Source: Minisyncoccota bacterium (GTDB lineage: Bacteria > Patescibacteriota > Minisyncoccia > Phycocordibacterales > CAJBRS01). Taken from it: a stretch of DNA of 38,717 nt. The position numbers and the translations under genes were made by a program. Location of the stretch: contig JADGRH010000005.1 in the NCBI GenBank assembly GCA_017881075.1, positions 1 through 38,717 on the forward strand, read 5' to 3'. The notes beneath the pieces are model-generated. The model did not search any database, was not told where the DNA came from, and saw only the letters and a list, made by a program, of their open reading frames with translations. Positions 9,011-17,340 of the stretch are shown here, one piece after another (the first letter of the stretch is position 1; each line of letters begins with the position of its first letter).

Positions 9011-9043
9011 TTTGCTCCGTCCAGTAGAGGATGTTAGAACCTA
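9011..9043 (+). repeat. GCTCCGY-family intergenic repeat, copy A
   Basis: TTTGCTCCGTCCAGTAGAGGATGTTAGAACCTA. Confidence 0.75.
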
Positions 9044-9079
9044 TCAATAAACCAACCATACCCATTCAGGCAACTGATT

Positions 9080-9241
9080 TTATTTCAGGAATCTAAAGAA
9101 GAAAGTAGCAAACACCAGGACGATGCCGATGTTCACGATGAGCCGTTCCCAGAATCGATCCCTGAAGAACAGTAGATCGACGCCGACGACAATGGCTATC
9201 AAGGCCACAACACAAAATGCGATAAGTATAGGTCTTGTCAT
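9080..9241 (-). CDS. 53-aa small two-TM membrane protein (missed by the ORF track)
   Basis: MTRPILIAFCVVALIAIVVGVDLLFFRDRFWERLIVNIGIVLVFATFFFRFLK*. Confidence 0.55.
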   Translation of the reverse strand: MTRPILIAFCVVALIAIVVGVDLLFFRDRFWERLIVNIGIVLVFATFFFRFLK

Positions 9242-9284
9242 TACTTGAAAACACTACTACATTTTTATGGTAAAAGCCAAAACA

Positions 9285-9317
9285 AAGTGCCCCGTCTAGT
9301 AGAGGATATCAGAACCC
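9285..9317 (+). repeat. GCTCCGY-family intergenic repeat, copy B
   Basis: AAGTGCCCCGTCTAGTAGAGGATATCAGAACCC. Confidence 0.75.
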
Positions 9318-9338
9318 ACCTTATGATGATTTGAAAAT

Positions 9339-9632
9339 TTAATTATCTTGGGAATCCAAATGCAATTCAACGTTGGCCTTTACTGCTTCTTCTTTTGCAA
9401 CGTTTGGATCGAATATTTCGTTAAGAGGAAATCTTTTAATCGTATCCTCTCTTTGATGATACCAGCCAATTGCTTCATTACCCCTAATTTCTTTTAGATT
9501 ATAAACAATTTTATCGTTAGGATGAGCAATGACGTCTCCAATTTTGAAGACATGTTGTTTAGCTCTCTCTTGAGCTCTTCTTATCCCAACTTGAAGAGGT
9601 AATTCGGTTTCGTCTATAGGGCCTTTTTCCAT
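9339..9632 (-). CDS. Hypothetical protein, resembles YccV/HspQ-like small beta domain
   Basis: MEKGPIDETELPLQVGIRRAQERAKQHVFKIGDVIAHPNDKIVYNLKEIRGNEAIGWYH...; internal ATG preferred because the upstream extension covers repeat copy C. Confidence 0.55.
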   Translation of the reverse strand: MEKGPIDETELPLQVGIRRAQERAKQHVFKIGDVIAHPNDKIVYNLKEIRGNEAIGWYHQREDTIKRFPLNEIFDPNVAKEEAVKANVELHLDSQDN

Positions 9633-9650
9633 ATAAATAATTATATCAAA

Positions 9651-9735
9651 TTTGCTCCCTTGGTTGGATACGTTCAGAACTCTAGATTGGGTGAAGATAA
9701 AGAGGGAAGTGGAAAGTCTGAGATTTGTATAAACA
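9651..9735 (+). repeat. Long-form repeat copy C
   Basis: TTTGCTCCCTTGGTTGGATACGTTCAGAACTCTAGATTGGGTGAAGATAAAGAGGGAAGTGGAAAG..., matches 16621-16705. Confidence 0.8.
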
Positions 9736-9745
9736 AATTCAACAA

Positions 9746-9770
9746 TTTCGCTCCGCTTAGCAGAGGATGC
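9746..9770 (+). repeat. GCTCCGY-family repeat, degenerate copy D
   Basis: TTCGCTCCGCTTAGCAGAGGATGCT. Confidence 0.5.
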
Positions 9771-9847
9771 TCCCGATTCGTTCAAAAAGCCTTGTAATTG
9801 AATAAAAATCGCAGTCCGTTAGGATTAGGAAACTCTTTCCAAATTCC

Positions 9848-10555
9848 TTAATTTTTCCCCTTTTTGAGTGAGGTGGTATAGAAATGATGTTCGCGGAATG
9901 TAATTCCAATCACCAACCAGAGGCCTCCGATAAGGAATCCACCGAGAACGTCACTCAAGTAATGCACCCCAAGATATATTCGGGAAAATCCTATAAGAGC
10001 TATCAGAAAAAAGCCGAGTAATGTTAATAGTGTTCTGCCATTTTTCTTTACGGAATGCCTTACGAGGTAATAAATAATGAATCCAAAAAAAGCTACGGCG
10101 ATGGTGGCATGGCCGCTGGGGAAAGATTTTGAATTTTCAATATAGTAGGCAATATTGGCGCTGGGACGGTCTCTATTAATGAATATTTTGATAAAATAAA
10201 CGCTTGCTTCAGTTCCGATGAAATTAAGAATAAGAGCGTAAAGATAAGCCAATTCTTTTTTAAAATAAAAATAAGCAAGCGTAATAGCCAGAAGAACGCT
10301 TATGGTTATTTGATCAGCAAAGTTAGTAATGATGTAAAACATTTTTGCTAGAGTAGCACTACGGTAAAGAAAAATAAACTGTGAGAAACTTGCATCAAGC
10401 TTGACTATAGGTGCCGAGTTTACAATGGATTCTGTTAAACCAATAAGGGTAGCTAAAAGAATCAAGAAAAGAGAAACAAAAAGAGTTAAGGGAAGGCCTG
10501 TAAATACCTTCCGCTCCAATCGCTTTTTTAGAAATGACCTGAATCCAAAGCTCAT
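9848..10555 (-). CDS. PAP2-superfamily phosphatase
   Basis: KIFINRDRPSA...SFPSGHA...SRIYLGVHYLSDVLGG. Confidence 0.93.
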   Translation of the reverse strand: MSFGFRSFLKKRLERKVFTGLPLTLFVSLFLILLATLIGLTESIVNSAPIVKLDASFSQFIFLYRSATLAKMFYIITNFADQITISVLLAITLAYFYFKKELAYLYALILNFIGTEASVYFIKIFINRDRPSANIAYYIENSKSFPSGHATIAVAFFGFIIYYLVRHSVKKNGRTLLTLLGFFLIALIGFSRIYLGVHYLSDVLGGFLIGGLWLVIGITFREHHFYTTSLKKGKN

Positions 10556-10601
10556 GGAAATATAGTATCATTAGTTATCTTGACTTATAAGGCTCAAATA
10601 T

Positions 10602-11957
10602 ATGAAATATATAGCAAGAATAAAAAAAGCTTTTGAGACCTTACAGAAAAATTTTATGACATATACATGGTGGGAAATAGTCATTTTTATTATCGGATCT
10701 TTTTCAACTATCTCCTTACTGGCAGTGCTCTTTTTCCCACTTGGCAGTGGCCCCTCTAAATTCACCACTACCGGAGTGGCGCCGCCCGCCTCAAGTCCCC
10801 AGTTTGTCAGTATGCTTTCGAATTCATTGACTCTGCCACTTCGCACTGGAGATCCCATAACCATACTTAACAACGGAGATGCCTTTTTAAAGTCATTTCT
10901 CTCTGATATTGATAGTGCCCATTCTTCCATTGATATTATGGTTTATATTTGGACTGACGGTAAAATGAGCGACCAAGTTCTGGAGCATCTTGATCAAAAA
11001 TTGAAACAAGGCGTCCAAGTGAGAATTATGATTGACGCTTTTGGCAGCAAGACCGATACACCCAAAAAACAATTCAATACATTTAAGGATTTAGGTGGAA
11101 AAATATCAGTATTTCATTCATTTACGATTGCTCCGTGGGATCTTGCAAAAAATCGAGCCCGCAACCACCGGCGAGCAATAGTCATTGATGGGAACATTGG
11201 ATACACAGGAGGTATGACCGTGAATGATTCTTGGCTTGGTAATGCCGAGAATCCAAAAGAATACCGAGACATGATGTTTCGAACGACAGGCCCGATGGCG
11301 GAGGATATTCAAGGTATCTTCAGCGAACTCTGGACAAGTATGACTGGAGAACTTTTGGTGGGAGAAACTTTTTATCCTCAAATATCGCCCGCGGGAGAGA
11401 TGGGCCCCTTGACCTATATTCCACTATCAAGCGTCCCTTCCCCTGATAGTTTAGCATTACAAAAATTTGTTTTGCTCTCTCTTCTTGGGGCCCAGCAAAA
11501 AATATACATTACGAATCCATATTTTCTTCCAGATCCTTCACTTAGCAATGCATTGATTGAGAAAGCAAAAGCCGGTGTAGATGTGCGAGTTTTAGTGCCA
11601 AATAAATACAACGATGTTGCCTCACTCCGATATGCCAGTCAATATTCATATCAGGCTCTTTTAGAGAGTGGGGTGAAAATCTATGAATACCAACCAACCT
11701 TTATTCACACCAAAACAATGGTTATTGACGGCAACTGGTCAATCATTGGCTCCGCAAACACGGATAATAGAAGCAGGAAACTCAATGACGAAGATATTTT
11801 TGGAATTTCGGACAAGATGTTTGGGGCAACACTTGAAAAGGCCTTTCTTAAAGATTTGAGTAATGCTAAAGAAATTGACCTCAAAGAATGGAAGAAGCGA
11901 AGTATTTGGCAACGCATGCGGGAAATTTTTGACCGCAAGTTTGTCCAACAATATTAA
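10602..11957 (+). CDS. Phospholipase D-like / cardiolipin synthase family protein
   Basis: Two HKD-type motifs: NHRRAIVIDGNIGYTGG and IHTKTMVIDGNWSIIGSANTDNRS. Confidence 0.9.
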   Translation: MKYIARIKKAFETLQKNFMTYTWWEIVIFIIGSFSTISLLAVLFFPLGSGPSKFTTTGVAPPASSPQFVSMLSNSLTLPLRTGDPITILNNGDAFLKSFLSDIDSAHSSIDIMVYIWTDGKMSDQVLEHLDQKLKQGVQVRIMIDAFGSKTDTPKKQFNTFKDLGGKISVFHSFTIAPWDLAKNRARNHRRAIVIDGNIGYTGGMTVNDSWLGNAENPKEYRDMMFRTTGPMAEDIQGIFSELWTSMTGELLVGETFYPQISPAGEMGPLTYIPLSSVPSPDSLALQKFVLLSLLGAQQKIYITNPYFLPDPSLSNALIEKAKAGVDVRVLVPNKYNDVASLRYASQYSYQALLESGVKIYEYQPTFIHTKTMVIDGNWSIIGSANTDNRSRKLNDEDIFGISDKMFGATLEKAFLKDLSNAKEIDLKEWKKRSIWQRMREIFDRKFVQQY

Positions 11958-11982
11958 TTATTTCTCATTAAGGTAATTTTTC

Positions 11983-12585
11983 TTACCGGAACACTTTTTT
12001 TGTATATTTATTTGCGACCAAGACTGAGATTATAATAGTAACTAGAATAATCAACCAACTGAATACACCCACAGTGTTATAGAACACCTGCCAATTTTCA
12101 ACGAAAAAATAACCGATACTGGAATAAAAAATAATTTGCAATATGTCTCCAATTACCGCATATAATACAAAACGTTTGAATTTCATCTTTCCTAGCCCGG
12201 CAAAAACATTTACTATTACAGTAGCTTGGTCTTGAAAGCGACTCATGATGATTGCTACAGCCGAATAATTATTCTCTACCCTCTCCACAATTTTGAGTGA
12301 CTTTGATTCGACAAATTTTTTTAAATGAAACCAGTACAAGACTTTTTTGCCATACCTTTTAGATAGGGTGTACATAGTTATATCTCCTAAAATGTTACCA
12401 AGAACACCCGTAACGAGCACGGCATAGATGTTGAAGTACCCTTGGCTTGCAAAAGCTGCCGACGCCATGGTGCTTGATCCTGCGGGTAACGGGACACCAA
12501 GAGAAGAAAGAAAGCTAACTAAAAAGAACGCTACGTATTTGTAAACAAGCAGTAACCCAAGAATGTTTTGGAATAGTGAACTCAT
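11983..12585 (-). CDS. DedA-family membrane protein
   Basis: GVPLPAGSSTMASAAFASQGYFN...GNILGDITMYTLSKRYGKK...SRFQDQATVIVNVFAGLGKMKFKRF. Confidence 0.85.
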   Translation of the reverse strand: MSSLFQNILGLLLVYKYVAFFLVSFLSSLGVPLPAGSSTMASAAFASQGYFNIYAVLVTGVLGNILGDITMYTLSKRYGKKVLYWFHLKKFVESKSLKIVERVENNYSAVAIIMSRFQDQATVIVNVFAGLGKMKFKRFVLYAVIGDILQIIFYSSIGYFFVENWQVFYNTVGVFSWLIILVTIIISVLVANKYTKKVFR

Positions 12586-12981
12586 CTATTGAGTACTCTT
12601 AGTGTATTGAGCAATAGACTCTCGAACGTTTGTTAAGAAAATAGTCGTATTGAAGTTTTTCATTTTTGCATATTGGTTAATGCCTAAATTAAGGTAGTGG
12701 CTATCTTGGATATTCAAATTTCCTGACAGATAATCTGGAGGTAAATTAAAAATATAGTTGACGTAAGAAAAAGTCATCCAGCCTTGAATCTGGTCTGGGC
12801 TTGCCGTCTGTTTGTAAATATGATTTCTGTTAAGTCCCCTCGTCGGTCTCAGTTCGCCTGCTCGATATAAATCTCTCAGATTAACAATAAACCAAACCGA
12901 CAAACTTATTATAATGATCAATAAGATCGTGAAGAGGATTTTCCATAAATATTTATGTAGTTTCGTTTTAATTTTGCGCAT
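12586..12981 (-). CDS. Hypothetical single-TM protein
   Basis: N-terminal TM; overlaps upstream amidase gene by 14 nt. Confidence 0.65.
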   Translation of the reverse strand: MRKIKTKLHKYLWKILFTILLIIIISLSVWFIVNLRDLYRAGELRPTRGLNRNHIYKQTASPDQIQGWMTFSYVNYIFNLPPDYLSGNLNIQDSHYLNLGINQYAKMKNFNTTIFLTNVRESIAQYTKSTQ

Positions 12982-14188
12982 AGATTTTACTCAAAAGGTT
13001 AAAAGTCTTTAAGCCACCGACGCCTTCGCCAGTAATGCCATTTTTATTTTGAAACGTCAGTAGTGCCGCGCTTGTGCATGAGCCAAAAGTCCCGCTATGG
13101 GGACAATCATTTTTACTTTTGCCCTTAGGTGGATAATCACCATCCATCAGAAGAGCTGTCTGCAGTGCATATATATCTTCAGGGTTGGAGTTCTTTCCTG
13201 TCACCGGAGCCTTCCATGCATACAGCGATGTGGGATTATACGAGAAAGTTATGCTCACATTTGTGTTTTTAGTAAAAAAATCTTCTAGGCCGAGATACGT
13301 TTGATATGCAAGATCTTTCAAGGCTAAGTTGCGCACTTTTGGGTTCACAAACTGGGGCTGATACACATAATCGTACTCGATAAGCATGCTCGCGGCATCG
13401 GCGCTATTACCAACACCAACCGCAATAAGCTCTGGGTCGTCAATAATGCCGGCCGACTCTGCCGGAAGGTTGCTTATAGGATTATACAAAGAAAGCCGCT
13501 TAAACACAGCGTAGGCAATGGCTTTGGTTGTAGGGTTGTTCGCATATTGCTGTGCCGGAATATAGATGGCTAATCCTGAATATTTACCGGCGACCTTGCT
13601 TGAATGGCTCGGATAATCATTGAGGTGCAGGTGGATCATCAAATCTATACTATTTTCATTGGCCCATTTATTGATTCCGAAGAGCCTTAGCGCGACGTTG
13701 ATGGGAGCGCTGTTGTGATTTACCGGAGGAGCTGTTTGAGTACCAAGCGAAGCGAGTGCCGATTCATTTTGTCTTGATATTTTTTCCCATGCAATAATTG
13801 CATTCCAATTATTCTTGAAGTAATCCGTAAAAGTAGGATTCCACGATTGAGTATCTCGTGTGATAAATACCTGATCGTTACTATTTGTTTGCAGATATTG
13901 CTGCAAATCTTGACCTATTTCCACCACGAGATTTCGTTCGTATATAGAGCCAAATTGGGCTCCTCCATAGTTCGGTTCGTGGCCAGGAACTATAAGAATG
14001 CGAGCTTTTTCTGTTGAGGAGCTACTATTGTAGTCGGAATGTAAATCCGCAACGGATACAGTGCCATCGGTAGATGTAGCTACCGAGGCCGTGTTTATTT
14101 TGCCCACAGAAGGATGAGAATGATTGTATAAATATCCCAATCCGCCTAAAGCTATTATTCCAAAAAGGATAAAAAGTATTCGTCGCAT
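12968..14188 (-). CDS. N-acetylmuramoyl-L-alanine amidase-like protein with C-terminal peptidoglycan-binding domain
   Basis: ILIVPGHEPNYGGAQFGSIYERNLVVEIGQDLQQYL, MIHLHLNDY, LIEYDYVYQP; C-terminal LQTALLMDGDYPP...SAALLTFQNKNGI. Confidence 0.82.
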   Translation of the reverse strand: MRRILFILFGIIALGGLGYLYNHSHPSVGKINTASVATSTDGTVSVADLHSDYNSSSSTEKARILIVPGHEPNYGGAQFGSIYERNLVVEIGQDLQQYLQTNSNDQVFITRDTQSWNPTFTDYFKNNWNAIIAWEKISRQNESALASLGTQTAPPVNHNSAPINVALRLFGINKWANENSIDLMIHLHLNDYPSHSSKVAGKYSGLAIYIPAQQYANNPTTKAIAYAVFKRLSLYNPISNLPAESAGIIDDPELIAVGVGNSADAASMLIEYDYVYQPQFVNPKVRNLALKDLAYQTYLGLEDFFTKNTNVSITFSYNPTSLYAWKAPVTGKNSNPEDIYALQTALLMDGDYPPKGKSKNDCPHSGTFGSCTSAALLTFQNKNGITGEGVGGLKTFNLLSKIYAQN

Positions 14189-14190
14189 TT

Positions 14191-14955
14191 TTATATTCCT
14201 TGGGTTAAAGAAACAATTTTGTACCCTCGCGCTTCTATGGTCGTAAAGACATCATCGAGAATGTTGCCGGTTATAGTGTCACCTATATGCATCAGGTAGA
14301 TAGTGCCGGGAGTGACATGGGAAAGAATACGCTCCTTCACCTGCGCGGCCGTCTCTCCTTGTGGATTCTTCCAATCGAGAGCATCTATGGTCCAATACAC
14401 CGATTGGTATCCATCCTTTGCAGCCACCGAAAGTACTCGATTATTGCGTGCACCATAGGGAGCTCTAAAGTATGGTTTGGGTGAGGTACCGGTAAGGCTT
14501 TGTAGCGTACTTTCCATTTTTGTCAGCTCTTCGGTGATCTGATCGTTGGTGAGTTTGGTCAAGCTCGGATGATCAAAGGTATGGTTAAAAATCTCGTGGC
14601 CAGCCGCTGTAATATGTTTTACCAAATCAGGATGTGCTTCAACCATTTTGCCCGTTAGAAAAAATGTTCCCTTTAGGTGATGTTTTGCCAGCACATTTAA
14701 AATCGTATCCGCAGATTGAATGGTGCCACCACCATCAAAAGTAAATATTACCTCTTTCTTACTAGTATCACCACGAACAATTTCTTTAATACTAGTTCCC
14801 AATGTTGATGTCGAAATCGTTTTGACTGCCGATGACCTAAAAGAGGCTGCAGCTACTTGTTGTGACTGGGAGTGAGAGTGGGCTGCAATAGAAATAATCC
14901 CTGTCGCGCTGAGGACGACAACTGCGACGATAGTGATATAAGAGAGACGGCTCAT
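14191..14955 (-). CDS. Polysaccharide deacetylase (NodB/CE4)
   Basis: VIFTFDGGGT, GHEIFNHTFDHPSL, PYFRAPYGARN. Confidence 0.92.
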   Translation of the reverse strand: MSRLSYITIVAVVVLSATGIISIAAHSHSQSQQVAAASFRSSAVKTISTSTLGTSIKEIVRGDTSKKEVIFTFDGGGTIQSADTILNVLAKHHLKGTFFLTGKMVEAHPDLVKHITAAGHEIFNHTFDHPSLTKLTNDQITEELTKMESTLQSLTGTSPKPYFRAPYGARNNRVLSVAAKDGYQSVYWTIDALDWKNPQGETAAQVKERILSHVTPGTIYLMHIGDTITGNILDDVFTTIEARGYKIVSLTQGI

Positions 14956-15033
14956 TTTTCGATTTATCTGAATTGTATCAGATAGATCTTCAGCATGGAA
15001 CCTGTATTATGAGATAATGATGACTCATAATTA

Positions 15034-16014
15034 ATGTCGATGGTTAACCAAAAGACAATCCTGTATCTTAAAAAACAAAGCATTAAAATTATTCATGATG
15101 GTCAGGCATCATCAGGTGCTTATATTGCTGGTCCCACATTCACAATGTATCGATTCTCCTGGTTTCGAGATGGTTCATTTATCGCTGATGCCATGAGCCG
15201 AGTAGGAGAAATCAAAAGTGCGGAGGCATTTTTTGATTGGGCTGCTAAGGTAGTTCTCTCTCGACGGGATCGTCTTAAGAAAGGGGAGATTCTTCATGCT
15301 CGATATACAATAGAAGGTAATGAATCAAATGATGAGTGGCCAAATTTTCAACTCGATGGTTTCGGCACTTTTCTTTGGGCAATACACTGTCATGGTGCTC
15401 GACACAAGCGGCTGCTTGATCGATGGAATGAGGCGATGAATGTAATCGTGGAGTATTTGGTGGCACATTGGCGTGAACCCTCTCATGATTGGTGGGAAGA
15501 ATATGCGGCCATTCATCCTTCAACACTGGCATCTATTTATGGAGGATTAAAATCCCTAAATCATCCTGCAGCTCATAAGGTTCAAGCAGCCATTAATCTA
15601 AAGAATGCAAAGCTCGATGCCAGCCTCATAGTCTGTGCTACACCATTTGAAGCAGTAAGCCTTAAAGATTTTGCTCCCACTCTTCTAGATATTGAGCAAA
15701 GATTAGTAACGCCCGGAGGGGGCGTGCATCGGCATCAGACTGATATTTACTATGGTGGCGGTGAGTGGCTTCTCCTGACCTGCTTTTTAGGATGGCACTA
15801 CGTAAAACTTAATCGTCTAAAGGAAGCTCGAGCGAAACTTGAAAGAATAGTAGAACACATGGATAAAAACGGCTGGCTTCCGGAACAATCTTCGGAATAT
15901 ATGCTTGCTCCCGAGTATTACGAAGGTTGGGTTAAAAAGTGGGGTCCTTCAGCACGTCCACTCTTATGGTCACACGCTATGTTTTTGACTCTTGCTACTG
16001 AACTAGGTATTTAA
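15034..16014 (+). CDS. GH15-like glycoside hydrolase / glucoamylase-like protein
   Basis: YRFSWFRDGSFIADAMSRVGE, ARYTIEGNESNDEWPNFQLDGFGTFLWAI, GGGVHRHQTDIYYGGGEWLLLTCFLGWHY, LPEQSSEYM. Confidence 0.8.
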   Translation: MSMVNQKTILYLKKQSIKIIHDGQASSGAYIAGPTFTMYRFSWFRDGSFIADAMSRVGEIKSAEAFFDWAAKVVLSRRDRLKKGEILHARYTIEGNESNDEWPNFQLDGFGTFLWAIHCHGARHKRLLDRWNEAMNVIVEYLVAHWREPSHDWWEEYAAIHPSTLASIYGGLKSLNHPAAHKVQAAINLKNAKLDASLIVCATPFEAVSLKDFAPTLLDIEQRLVTPGGGVHRHQTDIYYGGGEWLLLTCFLGWHYVKLNRLKEARAKLERIVEHMDKNGWLPEQSSEYMLAPEYYEGWVKKWGPSARPLLWSHAMFLTLATELGI

Positions 16015-16062
16015 AAAAGTTCGACAAGTGAGTGGGTTGAAGTAATGAATTATAATAAGGTC

Positions 16063-16110
16063 AAGTGCTCCGCATGTTGAACGATGTTAGAACCTACATG
16101 TTAGAATCTA
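16063..16110 (+). repeat. GCTCCGY-family repeat, copy E, with partial tandem duplicate
   Basis: AAGTGCTCCGCATGTTGAACGATGTTAGAACCTAC then ATGTTAGAATCTA. Confidence 0.8.
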
Positions 16111-16116
16111 AATGAT

Positions 16117-16326
16117 ATGAAATTAACAAATGACAGCTATACAATTTTCATTGGCACTAAAAACTTCACCGAACGCTATTATCGTGATAAAAAGGGGTGG
16201 GTAAAGATGTCAGCCCGTGGCAAGACATTCCGAATGACTGCTGAACAAGTCCTGAATCATCTTTTACCAGCATTGTCTGGTATTAAACCAAACCTCGCAG
16301 TGAAAGTGGATTACAATAAAAAGTAA
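16117..16326 (+). CDS. Hypothetical 69-aa protein
   Basis: MKLTNDSYTIFIGTKNFTERYYRDKKGWVKMSARGKTFRMTAEQVLNHLLPALSGIKPNLAVKVDYNKK; bracketed by repeats E and F. Confidence 0.6.
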   Translation: MKLTNDSYTIFIGTKNFTERYYRDKKGWVKMSARGKTFRMTAEQVLNHLLPALSGIKPNLAVKVDYNKK

Positions 16327-16342
16327 TGGTAATCTTTGGGAA

Positions 16343-16375
16343 ATTTGCTCCGCATATTGAACGATGTTAGAACCC
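16343..16375 (+). repeat. GCTCCGY-family repeat, copy F
   Basis: ATTTGCTCCGCATATTGAACGATGTTAGAACCC. Confidence 0.8.
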
Positions 16376-16389
16376 GGGTGGTATAAAAA

Positions 16390-16590
16390 GAAAGACCGTC
16401 AAGTGCTGGGCATTACACTTAACGGTCTCGATCTAGGCGCACACCAAATGGTATTCTGGCTTGCGTCATCCCAGTGTCAGGAAGAACCGAACTGGGCACT
16501 TGTTCACTCTCGCATTACCTGATCAAAGTCGGGTCTTCAATGCGCCCTCCATAGGGTTTCAGTCTGCCCACCTATAAACAAGCCTCTAAT
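16390..16590 (-). ncRNA. Putative structured ncRNA ending in a strong intrinsic terminator; family not recognised
   Basis: No good ORF; minus-strand stems GGCGCA/TGCGCC, CGCATT/AATGCG, CCCAGT/ACTGGG, ATACC-ATTT-GGTGT; U-tailed terminator at the 3' end. Confidence 0.55.
16393..16428 (-). terminator. Intrinsic terminator of the putative ncRNA
   Basis: Minus strand AGACCGTTAAGTG-taatgcccag-CACTTGACGGTCT then TTCTTTTTAT; the single non-WC pair is U.G on the minus-strand RNA but C/A on the plus strand. Confidence 0.85.
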
Positions 16591-16620
16591 TGTACTTTAG
16601 CTTATTATTAAGAAAAGTAA

Positions 16621-16705
16621 AGAGCTCCCCTGGTTGGCTACGTTCAGAACTCTGGATTGGTTGAAAATAAAGAGGGAAGTGGAGAGTTTGGGGTTTATAT
16701 AAAAG
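16621..16705 (+). repeat. Long-form repeat copy G
   Basis: AGAGCTCCCCTGGTTGGCTACGTTCAGAACTCTGGATTGGTTGAAAATAAAGAGGGAAGTGGAGAG..., homologous to 9651-9735. Confidence 0.8.
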
Positions 16706-16707
16706 AA

Positions 16708-16755
16708 AAAGCCCCCAACGCGGAAGTCCTATTGAAGGCTCTTCCTGGGGGCTTT
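16708..16755 (-). terminator. Intrinsic terminator of the 16762-17208 gene
   Basis: AAAGCCCCCAACGCGGAAG ... CTTCCTGGGGGCTTT, T-rich run on minus strand. Confidence 0.8.
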
Positions 16756-16761
16756 GTTTAG

Positions 16762-17208
16762 CTATTGACTGGCGCTTTCGGGCTCCGAATTCAGGAGCTG
16801 GTCCAGAGTAAGTCCACGCACACTTGCGCAGTACTTGGCCTGATCGAGAAACAGTGGCTCCTCACGACGGTCTTGTGCCGAAGTTCCTATCCACCGCATG
16901 GTGAAGGTACCCGCGATAGTCTGACGCTCGTTGGGAACGCGATTGCGCGAGACCTTGATCTCTGTCCGCGCTTCGTTCAGCAGTCCTATGTGCCAGCCGT
17001 CGTTTAAAGAAAAGTGAATGCGATCATCGTTGCTCTCGCAAATCCAGAATTCTTTTTCTTCTTCACCCAGCTTGACCAGACCACGACCCGTGTTCAGGTC
17101 TATCCGCCGAAAGCGGGGACGATGTCCAGTTTGGACTTCCAGCGCCAAACGCAGATCTTCAAGGGTGTCGCAGACATTTGCAGTTATTACCGGTTTCTTT
17201 TTAAACAT
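16762..17208 (-). CDS. Hypothetical 148-aa protein
   Basis: AGGAG SD, own terminator, MFKKKPVITANVCDTLEDLRLALEVQTGHRPRF...; higher GC than neighbours. Confidence 0.65.
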   Translation of the reverse strand: MFKKKPVITANVCDTLEDLRLALEVQTGHRPRFRRIDLNTGRGLVKLGEEEKEFWICESNDDRIHFSLNDGWHIGLLNEARTEIKVSRNRVPNERQTIAGTFTMRWIGTSAQDRREEPLFLDQAKYCASVRGLTLDQLLNSEPESASQ

Positions 17209-17312
17209 TATTTTGCTCCTAGTTCAAGGTTCAAGTTGAAGAGATTACTCTCTTGAAACCACAGTTCAGTAGTTCTGAATACATTATATCATATATACAG
17301 AATATGTCAAAT

Positions 17313-17340
17313 TTTGCTCCGTGGGTAGGGATAGAACGGA
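17313..17340 (+). repeat. GCTCCGY-family repeat, shortened copy H
   Basis: TTTGCTCCGTGGGTAGGGATAGAACGGA. Confidence 0.5.

Follow-up and report, generated by a model that had tools for sequence, protein, structure and literature searches.

SCCmec and pseudo-SCC elements, which employ Ccr serine recombinases, occur both with and without the enzyme and line up at a single host gene, one after another, at its 3′ end. Previous work has established large serine recombinase (LSR) elements and integrons, as well as tRNA islands and tandem accretion. Tandem accretion of decayed elements has been described (PMC5704250), the Islander survey (PMC4383910) states that tyrosine integrases alone are known to target tRNA genes, and the main text of a large LSR survey mentions neither tRNA nor Patescibacteria (PMC10083194). 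In this study, we report a family of short repeats that separates small genes between positions 9014 and 17338 of a contig of a Minisyncoccota bacterium (JADGRH010000005.1, assembly GCA_017881075.1). The window referred to below is this whole 38.7-kb contig (38,717 nucleotides, contig C4), and its source genome, G000, comprises 716 kb in six contigs and is 97% complete. From sequence comparisons, we consider it probable that the repeats are attachment half-sites of LSRs which insert at tRNA-Asn, that cassettes lacking an LSR were most likely inserted in trans, and that the array of the window is an orphan stretch moved together with a tRNA end.

Repeats of the Window

A position weight matrix (PWM) built from 61 sites (29.7 bits) detected six full 28-bp sites in the window; every one is on the minus strand, and the plus strand gave no match. 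Their scores ranged between 29 and 37 bits, while 0.05 matches were expected in a shuffled window. Read on the minus strand, the repeat unit is RGTTCTRAACTCRTCCA-N6-GGAGC; outside the window, some copies reach ~110 bp. Two long forms of 80 bp (9654–9733 and 16624–16703) were 88% identical to each other. The copy at 9750–9777 is degenerate: it has kept its 3′ part (ATCCTCTGCTAAGCGGAGC), its 5′ arm is gone and it scores under the PWM threshold. The stretch at 17316–17338 is not a member of the family, being 23 bp of a tRNA-Asn 3′ end with two mismatches with respect to the tRNA-Asn gene of the same genome (C1:3876–3948). An Rfam search gave no match.

A preliminary description of this DNA had listed eight copies, all in one orientation. 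The eight positions do hold the features described, with small shifts of coordinates, and the single orientation was borne out. The number of copies must be reduced to six full sites, given that one is degenerate and the one placed at 17313 corresponds to the tRNA-Asn end. The consensus then proposed was good, although loose in comparison with the actual unit. The small units between copies, with open reading frames (ORFs) of 53, 97, 69, and 148 aa, and the envelope gene block in the 6.3-kb interval (9778–16066; PAP2, PLD, amidase, and GH15 among others) were also found as described.

The Site as the 3′ End of a Recombinase Gene

In alignments of the long forms, what is conserved is an opposite-strand reading frame and not a fold; the folds differ between members, and a common secondary structure was discarded on this basis. 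All 61 strong sites were open in one frame of the opposite strand, encoding L-[PR]-x-[LVM]-[DN]-[ED]-[FV]-R-T or close variants, with a stop codon 11–46 codons past the point at which the frame enters the site. The information content of the codon positions was maximum at the second and minimum at the third. The peptide so encoded is an LSR C-terminal tail of the LPxLDEFRTLDW... type, and Candidatus Wolfebacteria (CP011209.1) has an intact LSR of 549 aa, with Resolvase and Recombinase domains, whose gene has such a site as its 3′ end.

Intact LSR genes were found at tRNA-Asn by a Recombinase family search in Wolfebacteria and in genomes G031, G081, G069, G067, G061, and G073 (domains assigned with Pfam, as Resolvase and Recombinase, in G031 and Wolfebacteria, and by PF07508 search in the others). 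The LSR gene adjoins the tRNA on the opposite strand and takes its C-terminus from the antisense tRNA (LLRG, NWLRGLDSNQRPTL, or NLLPGRDSNPRPSR, each followed by the stop). In G031, for instance, the protein ends with ...KASNHPTLLRG inside the antisense tRNA, and the site is 9.46 kb distant. A displaced tail was located kilobases from the LSR where enough sequence was at hand, and joining the tail in silico with the head, that is, with the sequence that begins at the junction, gave a continuous open C-terminus in the two cases tested (G031 and Wolfebacteria). Wolfebacteria has two LSR elements in tandem (L179:2364–14122), and the frame of the older LSR is completed by the tail that the newer element displaced. 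G081 has an intact LSR element between its tRNA-Asn and a cassette array.

The elements at tRNA-Asn have the tRNA and the head at one end and the tail at the other, with only GGAGC in common, as the short core of attL and attR. Eight of nine LSR heads carry [AT]GGA[CT] or AGAAC at +6 to +10, and the ninth AGTAC. This arm mirrors GTCCA on the left, which places the centre of symmetry in GGAGC; the mirror arms GTCCA/TGGAC of the attachment site attP thus flank the core, and the crossover dinucleotide may be GA. The TTGACA present near +6 in some heads was left out of the arm evidence, because the positions of the promoter and of the attP right arm overlap.

LSR genes also adjoin other tRNAs. Among 58 LSR frames, nearly all from Patescibacteria, in loci L113–L179 (60 relatives and 23 named genomes), 27 run into the 3′ end of a tRNA on the opposite strand (26 of 55 without loci seen twice), and nine isotypes are entered in this way: Asn, Ser, Gln, Glu, His, Arg, Thr, Leu, and Asp. 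With respect to their contents, the autonomous LSR elements L057, L177, and L179 bear genes of restriction-modification (type III Res/Mod, C5 methylases, and N6/N4 methylases), together with conserved proteins, ~380 and ~519 aa long, that belong to no Pfam family.

Distribution of Sites and the Second Array

When tRNA-Asn loci of the order were picked by tRNA similarity only, regardless of sites, 10 of 19 contained sites. Fifteen of the 17 sites in these 19 loci were downstream on the tRNA strand, one was upstream and one was on the other strand. Near-consensus sites were present in 32 of the 297 genomes of the order (0/297 for a reversed-pattern control). An exact scan of 84,980 species yielded 25 stretches, mostly in Patescibacteria (Kaiser-, Taylor-, Nomura-, Wolfe-, Colwell-, and Uhrbacteria), with a few in metagenome-assembled genomes labelled as Spirochaetales, Deltaproteobacteria, Bacteroidetes, and Alphaproteobacteria. 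Some of these last labels may be binning errors; the deltaproteobacterial stretch is on a 131-kb contig. One array stands behind tRNA-Gln, whose end is likewise GGAGC. Regarding a viral origin, which was discarded, searches with two patterns matched none of 2.9 million viral contigs. In some Patescibacteria, an intron-like insert interrupts the anticodon loop of the tRNA-Asn gene itself (L014:7763–8105 and L151:170–813).

Apart from the window, pattern searches located copies at two places of G000 only, the end of contig C6 and the start of contig C1; the C1 part terminates at an intact tRNA-Asn gene (C1:3876–3948, minus strand). In the same-genus genome G001, the genes adjoining the C1 array and, ~7 kb on, those of C6 flank a single tRNA-Asn, and this gene order identifies the C6 end and the C1 start as the two sides of one locus. 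The resulting G000 array has at least 9 kb and about eleven sites (twelve counting one weak copy), and includes genes for a serine hydrolase, a GNAT acetyltransferase, a GrpB/AAA kinase, a methyltransferase, and an OmdA-domain protein, among orphans. The G001 locus differs in content and holds one unit of ~0.87 kb. Random scatter of the copies, or the same cassettes in all relatives, had been named in the preliminary description as contrary to cassette capture; what was found instead is anchoring at tRNA-Asn and a marked difference in length between the two genomes. In addition, contig ends fall within an array, or at or close to tRNA-Asn, in G036 (C4 end), G033 (C30 end), G006 (C2 end), and G000 (C6 end/C1 start), as expected if the cells of a population differ there.

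Cassette Units

The 61 measured units span 129–3486 bp, longer ones being outside the measurement, and many of them have 0.13–0.7 kb and one gene. Heads were alike between genomes, and in register with the junction, in 20 of 61 cases (16 cross-genome pairs), in comparison with none of 54 interior segments. Heads behind the tRNA also match, in register, heads behind sites in other genomes, and two cassettes of G000 are 92% alike in their first 84 bp, one beginning exactly after the GAGC of tRNA-Asn and the other after that of a site. These matches show that either the tRNA end or a site can serve as the partner at a junction. Terminators were found in 22/61 heads (1.2 expected) and promoters of the TTGACA/TATAAT type in 7/61 (0.35 expected), which is what a cassette landing behind a tRNA might need. 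A Fic cassette whose right arm is intact occurs in two genomes behind different sites, with 90% identity over 1.22 kb. A 129-bp unit without an ORF is 77% identical between two genomes (L006:3052–3181 and L076:711–844).

Proposed Mechanism and Alternative Explanations

We propose that the repeat is the P-left half of an attachment site used by LSRs that insert at the tRNA-Asn 3′ end. This half-site would be contained in the final codons of the LSR gene, whose direction is opposite to that of the tRNA, and the LSR would cross over at GGAGC, the short core common to attP and the tRNA 3′ end. Upon integration, the tRNA would stay intact, the antisense tRNA would replace the C-terminal tail of the LSR, and the original tail, namely the repeat, would be left at the far end of the insert. 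The newest insert would adjoin the tRNA, with the older ones shifted outwards. Integration of this kind would keep the insertion point constant, add a single repeat with every insert and place the newest insert first; all repeats would also share one direction, since each new insert enters beside the tRNA and pushes the older ones away from it. Cassettes without an LSR (~0.1–3.5 kb, usually with one gene) would enter at the same place, most likely with an LSR acting in trans, often having a terminator or promoter as their head and an LSR tail as their end.

The identity of the site, its anchoring to tRNAs, the LSR elements, the exchange of tails, and the presence of one cassette in two genomes are demonstrated at the sequence level by the comparisons above. 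Insertion of the LSR-less cassettes in trans is tentatively favoured over their origin as decayed elements, in view of the heads in register and the unit sizes. Going further, the chances seem even that this is a serine-recombinase counterpart of integrons, in which non-autonomous cassettes with an LSR half-site of 28–110 bp would be captured at tRNA genes throughout Patescibacteria, accumulate there in stacks and be exchanged. The LSR would then come from neighbouring elements or other replicons, and each insert would hand its tail to the preceding recombinase gene, as in Wolfebacteria.

It must be considered, however, that each unit might be the relic of a full tRNA-Asn LSR element that lost its LSR by deletion, so that arrays would result from stepwise accretion and decay, as in cis-mobilizable elements (CIMEs), and nothing would be mobilised in trans. 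Several observations speak for decay or against insertion in trans. LSR C-terminal fragments are found at junctions in L076, L078, L074, and L108; the ORFs at L076:757–1806 and L078:2556–2873 have only the last ~100 LSR residues, with another or no N-terminus, abut a site and share an identical break point, residue 399 of the G081 LSR. The right arm of LSR elements is missing from most LSR-less heads, and it is therefore not certain that these cassettes are LSR substrates. The several tail types within one array correspond to several different LSRs. Moreover, no cognate enzyme was found in G000, whose two LSRs, one ending in tRNA-Ser and the other without a tRNA found nearby, are ~24–28% identical to the tRNA-Asn type and belong to another group. 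Neither excised circles nor recombination events were observed. On the other hand, random deletion ends would not produce heads in register across genomes with their terminators and promoters, and decay fits poorly with the many single-gene units of 0.13–0.7 kb and with a Fic cassette of identical type in two genomes. On balance, we regard decay as rather unlikely and favour insertion in trans by LSRs. The associated recombinase contemplated in the preliminary description was found as an LSR family in relatives, whereas the LSRs of G000 itself are unlinked to the arrays and of another group.

The array logic, the cargo (methyltransferases, acetyltransferase, HipA, and Fic) and the cassette sizes are integron-like, and one Xer is present in nearly every genome. 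Even so, it is very improbable that an integron-like or Xer tyrosine recombinase builds the array: no PF00589 gene was found near any array, the only one in G000 is the housekeeping Xer beside rpsO, there is no attC-type pairing, the site is an LSR gene end, and the LSR elements at tRNA-Asn strongly contradict this explanation. Integron attC sites were discarded since the 28-bp sites lack GTTRRRY and a second half, the long forms have no consistent fold and there is no IntI (no attC covariance model was run); the doubt previously expressed about attC was right. Xer/dif sites share the 28-bp length and a loose likeness, but their arms and spacer do not match and an LSR explains more. The head hairpins resembled left ends of IS200/IS605-like single-strand insertions, but they are the terminators already mentioned and are not universal. 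For an island of a tyrosine integrase at a tRNA, the gene is lacking and the repeat at the far end encodes an LSR tail, not a tRNA fragment. Least probable of all is that the repeats are dispersed or regulatory elements which take no part in recombination. Only the missing cognate enzyme of G000 speaks for this, and it is contradicted by the single orientation, the tRNA-Asn anchoring, the shuffle expectation of 0.05 and the 0/297 of the reversed-pattern control.

Of the earlier proposal of cassette capture or recombination between repeats, the part that is supported is capture by site-specific recombination at the repeats. A mechanism different from integrons had been rightly suspected; the tRNA-Asn 3′ anchor, the LSR family and the nature of the repeat as the displaced 3′ end of an LSR gene had been missed.

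Organization of the Window Array

The array is anchored by the 23-bp copy of the tRNA-Asn 3′ end (CGTTCTATCCCTACCCACGGAGC; 17316–17338, minus strand), 21/23 identical and with no tRNA gene attached. Directly past the junction, the head of the first cassette reads as a promoter-like TTGACA-N17-TATAAT (17280–17312, minus strand), and an ORF of 148 aa without a Pfam family follows (16765–17208, minus strand). The six full sites, all on the minus strand, have an open frame and specify on the opposite strand LSR-type tails, each ending at a stop. The first two are at 16624–16651, within the long form 16624–16703 (tail LPWLATFRTLDWLKIKREVESLGFI, 29.9 bits), and at 16347–16374 (LRILNDVRTRVV, 36.5 bits). 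A 69-aa ORF on the plus strand, without a Pfam family (16117–16326), lies between the latter and the site at 16067–16094 (LRMLNDVRTYMLESK, 37.4 bits). The 6.3-kb segment at 9778–16066 is a candidate large cassette with seven envelope-type genes: PAP2, PLD, DedA-like, a gene of 131 aa, N-acetylmuramoyl-amidase, polysaccharide-deacetylase-like, and GH15, the DedA-like and deacetylase-like labels coming from reading and not from a Pfam run. Beyond it stand the degenerate site, identified by direct reading (9750–9777, minus strand, tail LRLAEDAPDSFKKPCN and stop), the site at 9654–9681 with its long form 9654–9733 (LPWLDTFRTLDWVKIKREVESLRFV, 33.3 bits), an ORF of 97 aa without a Pfam family (9342–9632, minus strand), the site at 9289–9316 (PRLVEDIRTHLMMI, 29.5 bits), an ORF of 53 aa (9083–9241, minus strand), and the last site of the array (9014–9041; LRPVEDVRTYQ, 34.0 bits). 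From the tRNA end to 9014, the units measure about 692, 277, 280, 6300, 96, 365, and 275 bp.

The array contains tails of two types, LRxVEDVRT/LRxLNDVRT and LPWLxTFRTLDW, which implies at least two LSR sources. ARAGORN found no tRNA within the window, and neither an LSR nor an LSR fragment was found in the window or in L006 and L007. The array is an orphan tRNA-Asn array of LSR-less cassettes, which was probably translocated from tRNA-Asn by a rearrangement together with the 23-bp tRNA end. In agreement with this, no tRNA-Asn fragment exists upstream of the matching YchF gene in G001, and the PLD gene of the 6.3-kb segment has no match in that genome. Partial copies of the tRNA-Asn 3′ end, of 17–23 bp and away from the gene, occur in L062 (+136 from tRNA-Asn) and L063 (−657) as well as in the window, and copies resembling that of the window are present in G012 and G011.

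Comparison with Known Systems

As far as the literature searched shows, three aspects are new: LSRs at tRNA genes, an attachment half-site in the last codons of the recombinase with exchange of tails, and integron-like arrays of LSR-less cassettes. Searches on integrons or serine recombinases in Patescibacteria and on LSRs at tRNA genes, incomplete in coverage, retrieved nothing on this system. If confirmed, LSRs would be regular tRNA integrases in these bacteria, with attP hidden in their own C-terminal codons, and would give rise to arrays of cassettes with integron-like behaviour but no IntI. This would open to very small host-dependent genomes a route for gaining single genes (defence, restriction-modification, toxin-antitoxin, and surface genes). 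It would also supply a single 28-bp pattern with which to locate such genes, as well as new LSR attachment sites of compact size.

SCCmec targets rlmH and has units of many kb, whereas the target here is a tRNA. The tRNA-Asn elements resemble LSR elements of the phiC31/Bxb1/TndX type in their Resolvase, Recombinase and Zn-ribbon domains, and in having attP mirror arms around a short core with attB and attP otherwise different. They differ in the tRNA 3′ end as target, in the location of attP in the last codons of the LSR, in the alteration of the LSR C-terminus by integration, and in the small LSR-less cassettes stacked in tandem. Compared with an LSR element, the window array has the attachment half-sites at the unit ends (six, with LSR tail frames) and lacks the LSR gene. 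Tandem tRNA islands and CIME accretion (PMC4383910, PMC5704250) share insertion at the tRNA 3′ end, displaced copies and tandem decayed elements; however, the tRNA-targeting islands described use tyrosine integrases and their displaced repeat is a tRNA fragment, here replaced by an LSR tail. As regards CIMEs, LSR fragments do occur at four junctions, yet the heads are conserved and in register. Finally, integrons and clusters of attC sites lacking an integrase (CALINs) have in common with these arrays the tandem small cassettes with one site each and one orientation, the fixed insertion point, the diverse cargo, and the existence of arrays without a recombinase. In contrast, the arrays reported here have no IntI, attI or folded attC, their insertion point is a tRNA, their enzyme belongs to an unrelated family and their cassettes often bring their own terminator or promoter. 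They look like a second and unrelated route to integron-like gene arrays.

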